DNA from: an uncultured Alphaproteobacteria bacterium
Lineage (GTDB): Bacteria; Pseudomonadota; Alphaproteobacteria; CAAHEQ01; UBA3637
Direction: 5' to 3'
Assembly (NCBI GenBank): GCA_944392795.1
Contig: CALXXX010000008.1
Span: forward strand, 1 to 41,212
DNA length: 41,212 nucleotides
Every line of letters begins with the position of its first letter. Position 1 is the first letter of the stretch. Made by a program: the position numbers and the translations under genes. Positions 1,752-35,931 of the stretch are shown piece after piece. The notes under the pieces are model-generated. The model was not told the origin of the DNA and did no database searches. It was given only the letters and a program-made list of their open reading frames with translations.

Positions 1752-3233
1752 CTATTTATTTTTTTGTTGGCTTTCTTTATATTTTTTACGAGAGAGAAAA
1801 AGAAAAATTTTATAAGGTAATAAGTAAGAAGCGTTTATTGTTTTAGAAAAATCTGATAAAAAGGATGAAATGACAACTTTTTCTGTTACTTCTCCTTCTT
1901 CTTTAACGCGTTTTAGGAAAGCTAAAGAAGCAATAGCTAAAATACTAGCAAAAAGGAAGAAAAAGTCCCAATGATGGATATAGAAGAGGGTGAAGTCTTT
2001 AAAATCTGTTGCGGTTGACCATATTAAATTTAAAGATAACTCTTTATACGTAAAGAAATCTGCACAAAAGCCTCCCAAAATTGGGGCTGTTCCAGCCATG
2101 GCAGCATTTAAGGTACCGTTAACGGAAAGATAAATAGCTGCACTTCCTTTTGGTGCTAGTTTCAGTGCAATATTGTTGGAGGCAAGAGTGATGCCTGCTT
2201 GAGCAATTCCCATAAGTATGTAAATTAAAATTAATAGTGGAATCGTTAAAATATGTTTATCAGGAGTACCAGTAAAAAGGAAAAGAAAAATACATATAAT
2301 GTAAATAGGAGCAGAAACTTGTAGAATTGATTTATTGCTTAGTGTATCACTGATTTTTCCCCAAGTTCCCATTACAAGAACACTGACAACTTGAGTTAAG
2401 GTTGTTAAAATTAAAACAAAACTAAGGCTTAATTCCAAACCTTGTAGAATAAAGACCGTAAAGAAAGGAACTGCTAGATTAATTGAAAAATTCCAACTTC
2501 CGAGGAATAGCATCAATTTAGTGAAATTTTTATCTTGGAAAACTTTTTTTATGCGGTTAAAGAAATTTTCTTGCAACAAAGGAGGAGCTTCCATTGAAGG
2601 TTCTTGTATACGATAATAAATGTAACCGCTATAAAAGGCAATAATGGCGGCGATACTAATTAAAATACCGTAGAAATCATTTTTGTCATAAGGCCATAAA
2701 TTTAGAAAGAATGCAGAAGAAAGTGTAGCGCACAAAGAAGCTGCCATGACCCATTTTAGTCGTTTAGAAAAGAATTGTCCCAGGATTTGGGATGGTATTA
2801 AATCTTTCATCCAGGAGTTCCATGGTGCTCCGGCAAAAGAGGCGCCAACATAACGTCCTGTATAAAGAAGTGCAAGCAAAATAGACGCTCCTTTTGTTTC
2901 CGGAAAGAACGCAAGACAAGCAATCAAGGGAATACACATACGTCCTGCCATTGAAACGGGAATAGCTAGCCACTTTCTTGTATGATATTTATCAACTAAA
3001 TAAGCGGCAGGAAATTGTGCTAAATTGGCTAAGAAAGGTAAAGCGACTAAATAACCAATAAGTGCATTTGAGGCTCCTACAGAAAGAGCTAAAGCAACTA
3101 AAATTGGTCCGGCGGTCAGGCTTTCCATTAACTGAGCAGCAATACCATCTTGAATAAGCCAAGATAAGCTGGATTTAACCTCTTGCTCTGATAATGAATG
3201 CGGTGACATATTTTTTTTAAAATGATCCCACAT
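1752..3233 (-). CDS. Major facilitator superfamily (MFS) transporter
   Basis: Inner-membrane secondary transporter of about 493 residues with about twelve hydrophobic segments in two halves. The loop after the second or third helix carries YLVDKYHTRKW, matching the MFS motif A position (D-x-x-x-x-R-K). The central loop (about residues 180-220) is basic. Substrate cannot be told. I chose the ATG at 3233 because GGGGAG lies just upstream; the frame is open to a TTG at 3284, which lacks a ribosome site. It is followed closely on the same strand by the hydrolase/HNH/recG group, so it is probably the last gene of that operon. It converges with the phosphoribosyltransferase gene with no gap and no visible terminator. 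Confidence 0.85.
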   Translation of the reverse strand: MWDHFKKNMSPHSLSEQEVKSSLSWLIQDGIAAQLMESLTAGPILVALALSVGASNALIGYLVALPFLANLAQFPAAYLVDKYHTRKWLAIPVSMAGRMCIPLIACLAFFPETKGASILLALLYTGRYVGASFAGAPWNSWMKDLIPSQILGQFFSKRLKWVMAASLCATLSSAFFLNLWPYDKNDFYGILISIAAIIAFYSGYIYYRIQEPSMEAPPLLQENFFNRIKKVFQDKNFTKLMLFLGSWNFSINLAVPFFTVFILQGLELSLSFVLILTTLTQVVSVLVMGTWGKISDTLSNKSILQVSAPIYIICIFLFLFTGTPDKHILTIPLLILIYILMGIAQAGITLASNNIALKLAPKGSAAIYLSVNGTLNAAMAGTAPILGGFCADFFTYKELSLNLIWSTATDFKDFTLFYIHHWDFFFLFASILAIASLAFLKRVKEEGEVTEKVVISSFLSDFSKTINASYLLPYKIFLFLSRKKYKESQQKNK

Positions 3234-3289
3234 TTTTCTCCCCATTTTTAATGCTAGTTTAGCAATATACGATAAGTCTTTCAAGAAGT

Positions 3290-4090
3290 TTATTTAAAAC
3301 GAGCTTTTAACCAGTCTTTGATTTTTTCATATGAACCAAAATCAAAAACATTATGAGAAGCATTTGGAAGTGAGATAAAAGTTTTATCTTTTTCTTTAGC
3401 TAATTGAAAAAGATCTTTACTATGTTCAAAAGGAATGACTTTATCTTTAGTTCCATGAATAATCAACAATGGAGCATTTATATGCATAATACGTTTGTTT
3501 GACATGAAAGGATTTTTTAAAAGAAATTGGGCAAAAGGAATAGATTTTTCATCAGCTAATCGATAAAGAGAAAAAAACGGAGCTTCTAAAATAACGCCAT
3601 TGGCAGATCTTTTTTCAGCAACTCCCAAGACGACACCTGTTCCCAGTGAGAAGCCATGTAAAATAACTTTAGAATGTCCTTGATCTTTTAAAAAGTCGAA
3701 ACCAGCTGTCGCATCTTCAATAAGAGCTTTTTCTGACGGATGTCCGGGTAAGAAACCAAAGCCCTGATATTCTACCATTAAAACAGGATAACCCATTTCT
3801 AAATAAGGTTTGAGTAATGGAGCAAAAAATGCAACTTGAGCTTTGTTTCCGTGACAATATAAAATGGCTGGTTTTTCTTTATCTCCTTTAAAATACCAAC
3901 CAAATCCATTTGATGAATCTTTTTTAGGATAGATAACTTCTTTAAATTCAGGCATTTGGATTTCATCTGGACTTTTATAGGTTTTATCTGGATGAAAAAT
4001 GATTTTATCTTGAATAAGATAAAGACTTCCAAAAATTAAAATAAGAAGAAAAGCAAAAATTAAAATAATGCGTTTGATCCATTTTTTCAT
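3290..4090 (-). CDS. Membrane-anchored alpha/beta hydrolase (Bem46/YfhR-like)
   Basis: About 266 residues. A single N-terminal membrane segment (IILIFAFLLILIFGSLYLI) anchors a periplasm-facing hydrolase domain. The oxyanion region is LYCHGNKAQ, the nucleophile elbow is HGFSLGTG (Ser), the acid is in HGTKDKVIP (Asp), and the histidine in NASHNVFDF. This triad fits the Bem46/YfhR group of serine hydrolases, whose natural substrates are mostly unknown. The ATG at 4090 starts two bases after the stop of the HNH gene, which suggests coupled translation; an upstream in-frame TTG at 4105 would overlap that gene. It sits 56 bases upstream of the MFS gene. Confidence 0.85.
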   Translation of the reverse strand: MKKWIKRIILIFAFLLILIFGSLYLIQDKIIFHPDKTYKSPDEIQMPEFKEVIYPKKDSSNGFGWYFKGDKEKPAILYCHGNKAQVAFFAPLLKPYLEMGYPVLMVEYQGFGFLPGHPSEKALIEDATAGFDFLKDQGHSKVILHGFSLGTGVVLGVAEKRSANGVILEAPFFSLYRLADEKSIPFAQFLLKNPFMSNKRIMHINAPLLIIHGTKDKVIPFEHSKDLFQLAKEKDKTFISLPNASHNVFDFGSYEKIKDWLKARFK

Positions 4091-11361: not shown

Positions 11362-11952
11362 TTAGCAATCATATCCATTTTTTGGATCTCCGTTTGTACT
11401 ACACTTACACCCTAGTAAACCACTAGGCTTATTGTACCAACAAACTTTGTTATCGGATTCATATATCATCTCTGAGGAGCTATAATCTGTATCAATATTG
11501 GGACCTGTAGTTGTGTAATCCGACGAGCAATAATAAGTTTGATTATATCGAATGGCATAAGAGTGTGTCGTATGCGCTTCTTCTATCCCTTGTCTGCCTG
11601 AAGAAGTAAGAGTATATCCACCACAACACGATCCGTTAATTGCACCGACGACTGAATAATTACTTCCTGATTGTAAATAAGTATAGTATTCATCAGACCA
11701 AGAATTATCATAACTTTCTTTTATTTGACAACAAGCGTATCCAGATTCACCAACGCCATTAACATAGTTTTTTACAAGCGTGTATTTTCCTTGGCTTGTA
11801 TTGCAGCATTGTGCAGAAGATCCTGTCCAGAAAGCTTCTTCATGAGCCTGACAGACTTTATAAGCTTTGCGTTGAATCGTCTTTGCAATTAATGGAGTGC
11901 TTGAATAAGATAAAATTAACAAAAAAAATATGACATTTTTATAATTGAACAT
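11362..11952 (-). CDS. Secreted Cys-rich protein, intact paralogue of the left-edge gene
   Basis: 196 residues, function unknown. Signal peptide (VIFFLLILSYSSTPLIA) followed by KTIQRKAYKVC. The mature part has about fourteen Cys, including CC pairs (QCCNTS, ACCQIK, SCCGGY), and is rich in Ser, Tyr, Asn and Gly, as in exported disulphide-bonded surface proteins. The first 50 residues align with the broken gene at 1-404. This copy has no homopolymer at its 5' end and reads straight through. AAGG lies about ten bases before the ATG. Probably monocistronic and divergent from hydCBA. Confidence 0.75.
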   Translation of the reverse strand: MFNYKNVIFFLLILSYSSTPLIAKTIQRKAYKVCQAHEEAFWTGSSAQCCNTSQGKYTLVKNYVNGVGESGYACCQIKESYDNSWSDEYYTYLQSGSNYSVVGAINGSCCGGYTLTSSGRQGIEEAHTTHSYAIRYNQTYYCSSDYTTTGPNIDTDYSSSEMIYESDNKVCWYNKPSGLLGCKCSTNGDPKNGYDC

Positions 11953-14513: not shown

Positions 14514-16280
14514 ATGGAAGAAATGATTACATTGACAATTGATTCAAAAGAAGTAAAAGTCCCAAAAGGAACTTCTGTTTTGGATGCAGCTAAAATGATA
14601 CAAGTTGAAATCCCGACTTTGTGCTATCATCCAGATTTACATCCGTCCGCTGCATGTGGAATTTGTATTGTTAAAATCAATGGCAAAATGTTACGTTCAT
14701 GTTGTACGCCTGCAGAAGAGGGAATGGAGGTTATTACCAGAGATCCTGATATTATTGAAGCTCGACGGACAGTATTAAAATTGACTTTAAGCAAACATCC
14801 GAATGAATGCTTAACATGTCAAAAAAATGAAATGTGTGAACTGCAGTCTTTGGCTGGTAAGTTTGGCATTCGAGCCAATGCATTTGATAACATTACGCCG
14901 ACGCCTTTTGAAATGCCGAAAGATGCCAGTACGAAATGTATCGTATTAGATCCTCGTAAATGTATTTTATGTGGTCGTTGTGTCGAAGTATGTCAGCACA
15001 TTCAAAATGTGTGGGCGCTCTCAATTTTGGATCGTTCTGTTAAAACACATATTGCTCCGGCAGGGGACTCACGGCTGGCAGATAGTCCTTGTATTAAATG
15101 TGGACAATGTACAGCACACTGTCCTACGGGTGCTTTAGTTGAGTATGATGACAGCGAACGTGTTTGGAGTATGTTACAAGAAAAGGATAATTATTGTGTT
15201 GTTCAAATAGCTCCGGCAGTTCGAGTATCAATGGGAGAGGCTTTTGGATATGAGCCTGGTACAGTAACGACTGGTAAAATTTATGCGGCTTTACGTAAAA
15301 TGGGATTTAAGGCAATCTTTGATACGAACTTTGGAGCCGATGTGACTATTATGGAAGAAGGTTCGGAATTCGTAGAGCGTTTTGTTAATGGAAACGGTGT
15401 TCTTCCTATGATTACAAGTTGTTGTCCAGCTTGGGTTGATTTTATGGAAAAATTTTATCCGGATATGATACCTCACTTTTCGACATGTAAATCTCCTCAT
15501 GCAATTGTTGGAGCTTTGACAAAAACTTATTACGCAGAAAAAATAGGCGTTGATCCTTCGAAAATTAAAGTGATTTCAATCATGCCTTGTACGGCTAAAA
15601 AATTTGAAATTTTACGTTCCAAAGAAATGTTCGCTAGTGGTTTCCAAGATGTCGATGTTTCTTTAACAACACGTGAAATTTGTCGAATGATTAAGCAGGC
15701 AGGTATAGATTTCGTCAATCTTCAAGAAGAAAAAGCTGATAGTCCTTTGGGAGAGTATACTGGAGCAGGAACAGTTTTTGGCTTTAGTGGAGGTGTGATG
15801 GAGGCAGCTCTTCGAACAGTTCACTATCTAGTAACCGGTGAAGAGATGGAAAAGGATGCTTTGGAAATTCATCCGATTTTGGGTGTTGAAAAAGGCATCA
15901 AAGAAATGACAATGAATTTGGCGGGTAAAGAAGTTCGCATTTGTGTAGCACATGGGACAGGAAATGTTGAAAAGGTTATGCAAAAGCTTCAAGCTGCGAA
16001 AGAAAAAGGAGAGGAGCCGCCTTATCACTTTATTGAAGTAATGGCCTGTGACGGCGGATGTATCGGAGGAGGAGGTCAACCCTTAGGGGTTACAGATGCT
16101 ATTCGAAAAGCGCGTATGGCTGGGTTAATGAGTGATGATGAATTTTCTGAATTCAGATGTTCTCATCAAAATCCCTCCATTAAAAAGCTTTATGAGGAAT
16201 TTTTGGGTAAACCATTGAGTGAGAAATCTCATCATCTGCTGCATACAAGTTATCAGCCAATTCCTCTTTATAAACGCTAA
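14514..16280 (+). CDS. hydA: [FeFe]-hydrogenase catalytic subunit (HydA/HndD)
   Basis: About 588 residues, cytosolic; reduces protons to H2 with electrons from ferredoxin and NAD(P)H through the partner subunits. Order: plant-type [2Fe-2S] domain (Cys near 35-60), His-ligated [4Fe-4S] (HPNECLTCQKNEMC near 96), two [4Fe-4S] motifs (CILCGRCVEVC near 149; CIKCGQCTAHCP near 193), then the H-cluster domain with all three signatures: ITSCCPAWV near 300, MPCTAKKFE near 357, and MACDGGCIGGGGQP near 509. It ends LLHTSYQPIPLYKR, like HndD-type enzymes, without a C-terminal [2Fe-2S] extension. Starts after GAGGG. Maturases HydE/F/G are not in the window. Confidence 0.96.
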   Translation: MEEMITLTIDSKEVKVPKGTSVLDAAKMIQVEIPTLCYHPDLHPSAACGICIVKINGKMLRSCCTPAEEGMEVITRDPDIIEARRTVLKLTLSKHPNECLTCQKNEMCELQSLAGKFGIRANAFDNITPTPFEMPKDASTKCIVLDPRKCILCGRCVEVCQHIQNVWALSILDRSVKTHIAPAGDSRLADSPCIKCGQCTAHCPTGALVEYDDSERVWSMLQEKDNYCVVQIAPAVRVSMGEAFGYEPGTVTTGKIYAALRKMGFKAIFDTNFGADVTIMEEGSEFVERFVNGNGVLPMITSCCPAWVDFMEKFYPDMIPHFSTCKSPHAIVGALTKTYYAEKIGVDPSKIKVISIMPCTAKKFEILRSKEMFASGFQDVDVSLTTREICRMIKQAGIDFVNLQEEKADSPLGEYTGAGTVFGFSGGVMEAALRTVHYLVTGEEMEKDALEIHPILGVEKGIKEMTMNLAGKEVRICVAHGTGNVEKVMQKLQAAKEKGEEPPYHFIEVMACDGGCIGGGGQPLGVTDAIRKARMAGLMSDDEFSEFRCSHQNPSIKKLYEEFLGKPLSEKSHHLLHTSYQPIPLYKR

Positions 16281-16307
16281 AGAAAAGCCCTTTTTTAGGG
16301 CTTTTCT
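16281..16307. terminator. Bidirectional rho-independent terminator after hydA
   Basis: Perfect ten-base stem AGAAAAGCCC/GGGCTTTTCT (16281-16290 and 16298-16307) with a seven-base loop. The A-rich and T-rich arms let it act in both directions, ending hydCBA and the convergent pilin-like gene, whose stop overlaps the right arm. Confidence 0.85.
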
Positions 16308-17161
16308 TATAAGCATTCCTCTCCATCTGTGATATCTCCTGTGCAGGGATAGCAATATCCATTATGCCAATATCGTTTGTTTTCCGTTAAATTACAGCGT
16401 AGACAAGCTTCTTGGGAAGTATTTTCATGGCCTTTATAGTCGCATCGGAAACAATAGTTATTTCCGCTTGATGAGGAAAAATAACGATTTGGACAAACTT
16501 GACATGTTTCTTGTTCTGCAAAGGGAGCTAAAGAAGAAATATAACAACTAACACAGGTGCCATCATTACTAAACATTCCCTCAGAACAGGGTTGACACAT
16601 ACCTTGAATGCAATACGGTTTTTCTTCTGGACAAAGAGTATCTTTGTAAACACAGATATTATTTCTACAAATACCACAAATGCCGCAGTCTTCATCATTC
16701 TGACAGCTTTTAAAGCGATTAGGGTTTTGAATTGTCGCTGTAAAGTTATTGTTAATGTAAAAAGAAACTTTATTCTCTTTTTCTAAACAACCTTCTCCTT
16801 CATTTGCGATAATTTCTTCGAACCATTCGCCGTGCATATTGATTAATCTTTTGCAAATTTTTTCTTGTAATGGAAAAACTAAGATTTCAAATGTTTTTTC
16901 CGTTTCTTTAAATAAATCCGGTTGTTCAAATGATGTTGTAAGAATATCAGCCGTAGAACGGACTTCATTAAGCTGCATCTGTTGAAGTAAGCCATCTGTT
17001 ATTGCAGTAAAAGCAATCAGTTTTACTTCTTCATAAACTTGATGAGCTTTTGTTTGAGTAAGAGCAAAAGATAGACTGATGAGTCCAGTAATCGTTATAA
17101 CGGAAATAATAGCTAAGACAGCTAATATTTCTAGAAAAGATCGTCCTTTTTGATATTCCAT
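16307..17161 (-). CDS. Type IV pilin-like protein with Cys-rich C-terminal domain
   Basis: 284 residues. The N-terminus is a prepilin signal: MEYQKG then RSFLEILAVLAIISVIT, with cleavage expected after Gly6 and Glu at +5, followed by a long hydrophobic helix. Residues about 25-145 are a mixed globular part. Residues about 150-284 hold about 26 Cys in CxxC-spaced repeats (CGICGICRNNIC, CIQGMCQPC, CVSC, CQVCPNRYF, CFRCDYKG, CLRCNL), reminiscent of EGF or TNF-receptor-like modules. That combination suggests a surface-displayed minor pilin or pseudopilin with an adhesive or variable tip. No other pilus gene lies nearby. AAGG precedes the ATG. Confidence 0.75.
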   Translation of the reverse strand: MEYQKGRSFLEILAVLAIISVITITGLISLSFALTQTKAHQVYEEVKLIAFTAITDGLLQQMQLNEVRSTADILTTSFEQPDLFKETEKTFEILVFPLQEKICKRLINMHGEWFEEIIANEGEGCLEKENKVSFYINNNFTATIQNPNRFKSCQNDEDCGICGICRNNICVYKDTLCPEEKPYCIQGMCQPCSEGMFSNDGTCVSCYISSLAPFAEQETCQVCPNRYFSSSSGNNYCFRCDYKGHENTSQEACLRCNLTENKRYWHNGYCYPCTGDITDGEECL

Positions 17162-17213
17162 TTTTATTAACCTTTTTTTTAAAATAACTTATTTTTTTTT
17201 AAACAATAGAAAA

Positions 17214-17241
17214 TTTATTTAAAGATATTTTTTTAAATAAA
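17214..17241. promoter_or_regulatory. Inverted repeat between the divergent pilin-like and acetyltransferase genes
   Basis: TTTATTTAAA (17214-17223) and TTTAAATAAA (17232-17241) form a perfect ten-base dyad with an eight-base spacer. The first 22 bases are identical to 12046-12067 upstream of hydC. In both places the repeat lies between a minus-strand Cys-rich surface gene and a plus-strand gene, about 90 bases before the latter. Possible operator or UP-type element. Confidence 0.35.
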
Positions 17242-17272
17242 GTAATGAGAATAAAATTACTATTTATATCGT

Positions 17273-17301
17273 TTGACTTTTGGTTGAAATAATGTTAAAA
17301 A
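17273..17301 (+). promoter_or_regulatory. Possible promoter for the acetyltransferase-carboxypeptidase pair
   Basis: TTGACT at 17273-17278, a 17-base spacer, then TAAAAA at 17296-17301. The -35 is good, the -10 is poor. The ribosome site GAGGAAAA lies before the ATG at 17324. Confidence 0.3.
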
Positions 17302-17323
17302 GCATATTTCACAAGAGGAAAAA

Positions 17324-18040
17324 ATGACTTATAGAATTGAACCATTAACAGTTAATTTTGAGAAGTTGACTGAGTTAGCAAAAGCTTATCAAGCATCTTA
17401 TTGTCAGCTTTCAGCTGCTTATAAGACACAAGCAGAAATGGCCCTTTATACCTTGTCTTATTTTTATAGTAAATTAGATTCTTTTACAAGAGATCGACAT
17501 TCAAATGTTTTTATGTTATCAGAGAATGAGAAACCAATAGGTTTTGTCCGATTTTCTCCAATTCCTACAGCTTATAAAGGCGGAACTGTTCGAACGGCTG
17601 TACAAAAAGAGCAGGGCTATTTAGATGGAGCGGCTTATCAATGGACACGTAAAATTTATTTTTCACATCCAGTTTCTTTATCTGATAGGACAATGATTTT
17701 AAATCAACTTTATTTATCTCCAGCTATACAAAATAAAGGATTTGGAACGGAAATTTTGCGTCATACATTGCCTATTATGCTGGATAAGTACGACAATTTT
17801 ATCGTAGAATATAATTTAAAAAATTCGCGAGCTATTACATTTTATAAGACAATAGGTGTAGAACAAATTGCTAAAACGCAGGACTTGGATCATATTATTA
17901 AGAATAAGAAATATATTAGTGAAGTTGGAATTGGTTATGCCGATATTCGTTTAGCTTGTCGAAAGATAGAAAAGAAACACTTACAATATTTATCGCAAGC
18001 GCCAGTTATTTTGAACCCTTATCAAAGGCAATATGTCTAA
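17324..18040 (+). CDS. GNAT-family N-acetyltransferase
   Basis: 238 residues. The acetyl-CoA binding motif A is LYLSPAIQNKGFGTEIL (Q/R-x-x-G-x-G/A form) near residues 129-145, followed by VEYNLKNSRAITFYKTIGV, the usual motif B region with the FY pair. Acceptor substrate unknown. The last about 45 residues, basic and Tyr-rich, extend beyond the core fold. The stop overlaps the next start (TAATG), so it is translated together with the M14 peptidase. A joint role, for example in modifying and trimming peptides, is inference only. Confidence 0.8.
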   Translation: MTYRIEPLTVNFEKLTELAKAYQASYCQLSAAYKTQAEMALYTLSYFYSKLDSFTRDRHSNVFMLSENEKPIGFVRFSPIPTAYKGGTVRTAVQKEQGYLDGAAYQWTRKIYFSHPVSLSDRTMILNQLYLSPAIQNKGFGTEILRHTLPIMLDKYDNFIVEYNLKNSRAITFYKTIGVEQIAKTQDLDHIIKNKKYISEVGIGYADIRLACRKIEKKHLQYLSQAPVILNPYQRQYV

Positions 18041-35364: not shown

Positions 35365-35931
35365 ATGATGGATTTTAAAGTTGTTCTGCCTTTAGCTTTA
35401 TTGGTTGGTTTTATTGAATGGATAAAGGGTTTGTTTGGCTTTTATACATGGGAACCTAAAAATCGTATGACCAATACGGCTACCAAAAGTATTAAAACAT
35501 ATCCAAAGGACTTAAAACTAAAAGATGGTGACATTTGTTTGGAAAATGGTGATTTGGCTTTGGTGTCAGGCGAGGAAGCATTTAAGCAACATTTGCAAAG
35601 TTTCATATCAATAACTATCGGGGAACTTTGTTATGCCCCGGATTACGGTTGTGAGTTTGTAGATAGTATTTTTTATGCAAGAAATAAAGAATTCAAACGA
35701 CAATGTGAACATTTGGCAAGAGTTATTGTAGAAAATAACACTTTCCGAGAATACATTGAAGAAGTTTACGCTATTAGCCGGAAAAAAGAGCATTGGTTAT
35801 ATGGTAAACCCATATTGTGTGTCGAATTTAAAGTTAAAGGATTACCGAATACACTTGCTGTTAAACTTTTAAATGTTAATGATTTACTTAAAAAACGGCA
35901 AAAAAGGAAAAAGCATGAAGCTAAAGTTTAA
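35365..35931 (+). CDS. Membrane-anchored GPW/gp25-like protein between mod and res
   Basis: 188 residues. Residues about 5-27 are a hydrophobic segment (VVLPLALLVGFIEWIKGLF), so the protein is probably membrane-bound. Residues about 50-170 resemble the phage baseplate GPW/gp25 fold: GDICLENGDLALVSGEEAFKQH, then ITIGELCYAPDYGCEF, where the GE..y.P.yG pattern is the family hallmark. A Lys-rich tail follows. Phage gp25 belongs to the baseplate wedge, and relatives (TssE) to type VI secretion; no other tail or T6SS gene is here. It starts six bases after mod and overlaps res by 17 bases, so it is built into the operon. Family assignment is by eye and is not certain. Confidence 0.6.
   Translation: MMDFKVVLPLALLVGFIEWIKGLFGFYTWEPKNRMTNTATKSIKTYPKDLKLKDGDICLENGDLALVSGEEAFKQHLQSFISITIGELCYAPDYGCEFVDSIFYARNKEFKRQCEHLARVIVENNTFREYIEEVYAISRKKEHWLYGKPILCVEFKVKGLPNTLAVKLLNVNDLLKKRQKRKKHEAKV

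Follow-up and report, generated by a model that had tools for sequence, protein, structure and literature searches.

What kind of protein begins as a prepilin and ends in a dense array of cysteines, and what might it do for a gut bacterium? The question is raised by one gene of the window, the 41,212-nucleotide stretch of DNA analysed here, which is the whole of contig C8 in the genome of a gut alphaproteobacterium (G000; 1.29 Mb, 41 contigs, 99.4% complete). We propose that this gene encodes a modular type IV pilin, P0001 (Table 1), whose pilin domain is type IVb-like, that its cysteine-rich arm is a binding module at the filament tip and that its paralogues form a changing repertoire. We give this reading a probability of about 0.6. 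The sequence-only reading had pointed to a prepilin cleavage site with Glu5, and this stands: MEYQKG/RSFLE is a class III signal peptide with Gly at -1, Glu at +5 and a hydrophobic stretch behind it, and the leader is presumably cut after Gly6. The same reading had put the cysteines at about 26; the count is 22, two of them in the pilin domain and 20 from residue 153 onward. This content is far above chance (P = 1.9e-10 for at least 22 in 284 residues, on a background of 179 cysteines in 12,744 residues from the 30 other window ORFs of at least 100 aa). The suggested CxxC modules are present, the last five CxxC pairs being spaced by 13, 13, 12 and 13 residues. No family exceeded its cut-off when P0001 was compared with Pfam, NCBIfam and PHROGs, and Pfam gave nothing up to E 1. 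The gene is flanked by a divergent GNAT acetyltransferase gene and a convergent gene that we take to encode an iron-only hydrogenase. An Rfam scan of window positions 16000-17500 returned no match, and around the gene promoter-like sites were no more frequent than in shuffled sequence and no terminator-like site was found.

Table 1. Features of the P0001 gene in the window
Feature	Position	Strand	Basis
Coding sequence of the Cys-armed pilin P0001, 284 aa, 22 Cys	16307..17161	-	ATG start; ortholog in sister genome G012
Leader peptide MEYQKG	17144..17161	-	motif read directly; PF01478 prepilin peptidase in genome
Mature N-terminal helix, residues 7-55, Glu+5	16997..17143	-	helix 8-55 in model
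Globular pilin domain, residues 56-145, Cys103 and Cys125	16727..16996	-	VIA-align matches, Cys conservation
Cysteine-rich arm, residues 146-284, 20 Cys	16310..16726	-	part of a ~100-aa tandem unit
16-nt direct repeat, site of 597 nt absent relative to the G012 ortholog	16480..16495	-	

Is the N-terminal half a pilin? A model of the domain, built from 23 aligned sequences (mean pLDDT 76.2, pTM 0.55), was aligned with 996 chains by VIA-align. The six top entries are all type IVb pilins, with Z scores of 7.5-9.2, and the next entry has a Z of 4.4. The matches are 3fhu (Z 9.2, rmsd 2.9, 99 residues aligned), 9iuf (Z 9.1, rmsd 3.4, 130 aligned), 8uhf (Z 8.8, rmsd 3.7, 126 aligned), 1oqv and 3hrv (Z 8.1 each) and 3s0t (Z 7.5), and they fall within residues 7-138. 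By this comparison the predicted fold is that of a type IVb pilin, common to TcpA, CofA and the PilS protein of S. typhi. Foldseek with the same model found no PDB match at E of 0.001 or better (best 0.034), and a PDB sequence search with alignment A2 gave weak hits to geopilin (E 0.026), TCP pilin (0.072) and ephrin receptor A2 (0.2). Cys103 and Cys125 are invariant in all 18 rows of alignment A4, a conservation that would fit a pilin disulphide. Classical type IVb pilins have a long leader and a non-charged first residue. Because P0001 has a leader of six residues and Arg at +1, we do not file it as a strict type IVb pilin; it differs from TcpA, CofA and PilS in this very short leader and in the added arm. 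It does have the layout of a modular type IV pilin, in which a pilin module is followed by an extra C-terminal module. A published study counts more than 1,200 such proteins in 264 architectures and proposes that the extra module is displayed at the tip (PMC8179133). PilB of Streptococcus sanguinis, as described there, shares with P0001 the class III signal peptide, the pilin module and the extra C-terminal module (PMC8179133). P0001 departs from these proteins in two ways: its extra module is a tandem array rich in Cys that has no Pfam signature, and a single genome carries tens of prepilins.

Both a prepilin peptidase and a pilus machine were found. The genome encodes one prepilin peptidase (PF01478, E 6.6e-17, on contig C15), and contig C40 carries a type IVb-type machine operon in the order TcpQ, PilN-family secretin, PilO, PilP-like protein (named by position), ATPase and PilR-type protein, after which a pilin stands at the end of the contig. 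The Pfam E values are 3e-17 for TcpQ, 1.2e-10 for the secretin, 7.7e-27 for PilO, 1.8e-67 for T2SSE and 2.5e-26 for T2SSF, and the PilN-family type IVB secretin is matched at E 1.5e-81 with 274.5 bits, just under the cut-off of 287.65. Peptidase, operon and predicted fold together bear out the claim of pilin identity. PilN/PilO gene sets are carried by plasmids such as TP114; a tblastn search of plasmid records with P0001 gave no match at 1e-3. Divergent from the pilus operon lie VirB4-, VirB3- and VirB2-like genes (L058:1-2986), the first recognized by Pfam and the others by eye. TcpQ is present in 36 of 40 family genomes, and the operon layout is the same in all eight relatives opened, as judged by eye from ORF order, length and Walker motif over 11.5-13 kb from TcpQ onwards. 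Within that span no prepilin adjoins the operon in any of the eight, so the link between pilin and machine is one of co-occurrence, and a single operon seems to serve dispersed pilin genes.

This dispersal bears on a different explanation, namely that these proteins are pseudopilins or pilin-anchored envelope proteins, held in the inner membrane with the arm in the periplasm or linked to the outer membrane and forming no surface filament. Besides the separation of pilin genes from the operon in the eight relatives, two points speak for it: 6-105 matches per genome are many for the tips of one filament, and arms with up to 120 cysteines are bulky. Against it, an operon with secretin, ATPase and PilR-type protein, accompanied by small armless pilins, fits a working filament, as does the predicted type IVb fold. 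We regard this explanation as unlikely.

What is the arm? In fuller relatives it is built of tandem units of about 100 residues, with CxxCxNR-type motifs at 235, 335, 435 and 535 in L036 and at 220, 318 and 419 in L029. It had been described as animal-like and EGF/TNFR-like, which fits loosely at best. The paired CxxC spacing does resemble that of Ephrin_rec_like/TNFR-type repeats, and a single BLAST comparison of the arm with an Ephrin_rec_like protein of the same genome gave a weak likeness (E 3e-5); however, P0001 has neither a Pfam match over cut-off, to Ephrin_rec_like (PF07699) or otherwise, nor a confident fold match. The arm model of the G012 ortholog (pLDDT 75.6, pTM 0.42) reached a best Z of 2.7 in structural comparison, where meckelin and knottins appeared in weak rows; Foldseek gave nothing at 0.001, its weak rows including 4-1BB and HER3. 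None of these rows was taken as fold evidence. A PDB sequence search with the arm alignment A5 found no match. The arm also resembles a secreted-looking protein of contig C23 with CPNR-type modules (E 1e-4, again a single comparison), and these two likenesses are the nearest found by sequence. That protein is the second of two secreted-looking Cys-rich proteins at L201:1562-2080 and 2757-3482, whose genes adjoin ABC-transporter-looking genes by eye. The Ephrin_rec_like protein of the BLAST comparison is encoded at L067:4930-11784 on contig C12; it has 2284 residues, with an ankyrin-like start, DPGV repeats and 13 Ephrin_rec_like stretches.

The cysteines of the arm could be paired in disulphides or could hold metal. 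Zinc-ribbon-like sites, engaged in metal capture or redox work rather than in disulphide-stabilized binding, are suggested by the CxxC-x13-CxxC spacing, which is like that of zinc knuckles, and by a weak match of Zn_ribbon_RRN7 to the G012 ortholog (E 0.015, below cut-off). Parity argues the other way. Of 104 long relatives, 88 have an even cysteine total and 16 an odd one, and the excess persists after clustering at 90% (84/100) and at 40% (38/45) identity; eight other residues, taken as a control, give 47 to 61 even totals out of 104. Four-cysteine sites would favour totals of the form 4n, whereas totals of 4n and 4n+2 are nearly equal, 44 to 40 at 90% clustering (22 to 16 at 40%), so pairs explain the totals better than four-cysteine metal sites. 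An exported location is also what one expects of a pilin. The proposed check for a Dsb system gave a mixed answer: two DsbA-like proteins are encoded, which counts against metal, but neither DsbB (PF02600) nor VKOR (PF07884) was matched in the genome, which counts for it. We therefore favour disulphides over zinc sites from the counts, the parity disfavours an arm of zinc sites only, and we consider metal binding very improbable. The absence of DsbB and VKOR matches is notable in a genome with so many exported-looking proteins rich in Cys.

How large is the set to which P0001 belongs? A profile of 25 prepilin N-termini matches 26 places in the genome at E 0.01. The match at C40:1485-1598 (270 aa) is SHOCT/TM2-like by eye and was left out, and those on C22 and C33, probably two halves of one gene, were counted as one, which leaves about 24 prepilins. 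The sequence-only reading had inferred an expanded repertoire, and P0001 is indeed one member of such a set. Small armless pilins are also present. In each of 40 family genomes (drafts of 0.7-1.8 Mb) the profile gives 6-105 raw matches at 1e-4, false positives and split genes included, with a median of 26.5, and P0001 itself matches 31 of 43 family genomes at 1e-6. The loci analysed contain 138 distinct prepilin-like ORFs, 116 of them closed and 105 of these long (at least 200 residues); 104 of the 105 carry at least 10 cysteines, with a maximum of 120 in 846 residues, a share that is biased because most loci were chosen for likeness to P0001. The ORF set also contained an FtsX-like false positive in L201 (1 Cys), which the 10-Cys limit excludes, and an apparent 29-Cys ORF after PilR in L250 proved to be a wrong-frame reading of a GPxYL-type repeat.

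Among the best 80 of 372 relatives, 78 of 79 P0001-like loci from named species genomes come from records titled Alphaproteobacteria and one from a record titled Akkermansia sp., and several titles mention a ruminant gut (roe deer, yak, sheep, goat, water buffalo). When a profile of the pilin plus the first Cys module was run against 385 genomes of the class, 24 matched at 1e-10, five inside the family and 19 outside; the search scored at most eight candidates per genome, so that some went unseen in pilin-rich genomes such as G384, which had 60. Out-of-family matches, in open frames of 60-323 aa, end within the pilin part, none reaching past position 160 of the 204 in the profile, so in this sample the Cys arm appears special to the family. 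Twelve pilin ORFs in five out-of-family loci have 1-4 cysteines and no arm.

Not all arms are of the P0001 kind. A pilin at L041:2100-3164 in G031 has a PT-HINT domain at its end (29.6 bits, cut-off 27.7), and one at L063:5772-7838 in the window genome has a similar HINT-like end by eye, with a weak match (E 0.046); such pilins are possibly self-processing or self-attaching. Ends of the WSAxxFC type, C-type-lectin-like by eye, occur on Cys-rich pilins at L064:3706-5607, L041:994-2094, L045:2433-3539 and L052-L054; Pfam found no C-type-lectin-like domain in L064, L041, L045 or L052.

The window had also been said to hold two Cys-rich secreted paralogues. The two minus-strand ORFs exist, at 1-450 (secreted-looking, 13 Cys, cut by the contig start, its 5' region containing a G run of 12 nt at 365) and at 11362-11952 (also secreted-looking, 12 Cys, similar to the first by eye), but neither matches the pilin at E 10, a threshold at which P0001 has 27 matches in its own genome. 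Further members of this secreted-looking Cys-rich family lie at L065:10865-11512 and L192:1-744; two members, on C8 and C5, are truncated where the contig begins.

Does the repertoire change? The sequence-only reading had suggested that it might, and the pilin set does differ between relatives, in module number, in shared blocks and in poly(C) tracts. The ortholog of P0001 in G012 has the same neighbours, and with 483 residues and 46 cysteines it has two more modules of about 100 residues; in the window copy an in-frame stretch of 597 nt is missing, bounded exactly by the two copies of a 16-nt repeat. The change looks recent, since both flanks are near-identical: 1,710 bp that include the acetyltransferase side agree at 99.8%, and 412 bp on the opposite side at 96.6%. 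Not every locus shows change, as further orthologous pilin loci remain collinear for 1.5-3 kb at 86-98% identity.

Paralogues also share DNA. For 12 of the 26 profile matches, namely C33 and 11 five-prime parts, a contig end is no more than 300 bp away (P = 7e-13 for at least 11 by chance), and exact 127-nt blocks within pilin genes are common to the contig ends of C13/C14, C24/C40, C9/C28 and C22/C33. We infer that these ends are the trace of a de Bruijn assembler meeting paralogues identical over its k. In C9/C28 identity is 15/50 in the 50 nt directly before the motif and then 44/50, 50/50 and 50/50; as it jumps at the motif, the shared block starts inside the gene. In C13/C14 the likeness starts about 100 nt earlier. 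G012 seems to have an extra C13/C14-like pilin beside its ortholog of L005, as judged from two separate contigs. In L230, a further gene of G012, three parts have different nearest sequences in the window genome: C24s for the first 150-200 nt, C33 for what remains of the pilin domain (86-91%, full windows) and C32 for the arm (77-91%). This mosaic would fit recombination; it could also be an assembly cross-join or reflect paralogues collapsed in the window genome. Mosaics and breaks were read from draft assemblies, and one may ask whether the diversity is mostly an artefact in which near-identical paralogues were collapsed or cross-joined. The exact 127-mers at contig ends, a typical assembler k, and the possible cross-join in L230 lend this some weight. 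The shared blocks are themselves real near-identity, however, the deletion junction in the P0001 gene, at 16 nt, is much shorter than 127, there are armed genes that are intact and have flanks of their own, and high counts recur over 40 genomes. We judge such an artefact improbable.

A further source of variation may lie upstream of some pilin genes. Sufficient sequence upstream was available for 173 distinct prepilin motifs, and 11 of them have a G or C run of at least 9 nt in the 250 nt before the motif. In background loci, seven of 16 such runs fall in the motif-upstream 2.6% of bases (0.331 against 0.0113 per kb, P = 7e-8). Eight of the 11 were read closely, L033, L100 and L132 being left out as their G run precedes the start codon. 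In these eight (L017, L019, L094, L096, L097, L130, L139 and L232) a poly(C) run of 9-14 nt stands 40-135 nt before the prepilin motif; in every one an ATG, preceded in several by an AAGGAG-like sequence, is open up to the run, and the frame of the motif is open through it. The ATG is in frame with the motif in L096 and L130 and off by one or two in L017, L019, L094, L097, L139 and L232. L017 and L019 belong to the window genome, L232 to G012 and the others to named relatives. An ATG, a homopolymer and a coding region in this layout are typical of translational phase variation by slipped-strand mispairing, and the eight pilins are probably phase-variable, as far as their reading frames tell. 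The P0001 gene has no G or C run of at least 9 nt within 250 nt upstream. On contig C34 a 13-nt run lies about 320 nt before a small pilin and has 14 nt in G012.

What are the implications for the cell? In the mechanism that we propose, the C15 peptidase would cleave the leader of P0001, and the type IVb-type machine would polymerize the dispersed pilins or load them at the tip. The arm would fold with disulphides outside the inner membrane and project from the filament as a binding module, the tip being its most likely place, and P0001 would be a minor subunit. The paralogues would form a repertoire that is altered by loss and gain of modules, that recombines within shared pilin-domain DNA and in which some members are switched by poly(C) tracts. 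A broader version, which we hold tentatively and at somewhat less than even odds, is that the whole constitutes a surface-variation system, a single type IVb-type machine with tens of dispersed pilins. Arms (disulphide-rich, lectin-like or HINT) would be exchanged through near-identical pilin-domain DNA, modules would change, and tracts between ATG and prepilin motif would turn individual pilins on and off. Such a system would correspond to antigenic variation but be built on pilins, with neither a shufflon nor a silent-cassette locus, and it would widen the concept of modular pilins, from adhesins that act singly to a gene family that varies. A switchable binding repertoire might explain how a commensal with a small genome locates different surfaces and keeps hold of them, or how it evades immunity or phages.

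Modular pilins and variable C-termini on type IVb pilins are already known (PMC8179133 and PMC9045228, respectively). In the PilV shufflon of TP114, a type IVb pilus carries pilins with a constant N-terminus and a variable C-terminus that act as adhesins (PMC9045228). The present family shares with PilV the type IVb-type pilus, the constant pilin N-terminus and the variable C-terminus; in contrast, its variation draws on scattered paralogues, on the number of modules and on poly(C) tracts. No shufflon cassettes were found beside the P0001 gene: three window ORFs of at least 40 aa exceed 5% cysteine, in a scan that dropped ORFs largely covered by longer ones, and none adjoins it. A literature search by title and abstract opening, which covered few subscription papers or preprints, gave no account of such a pilin repertoire, and the scale and mode of pilin variation in this gut alphaproteobacterial family seem to be new. 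Elsewhere in the window, positions 35365-35931 encode a sheath-initiator-like protein (PF10934, E 8e-8, just under cut-off), whose gene has a DNA methylase gene on one side and a type III restriction-type gene on the other.
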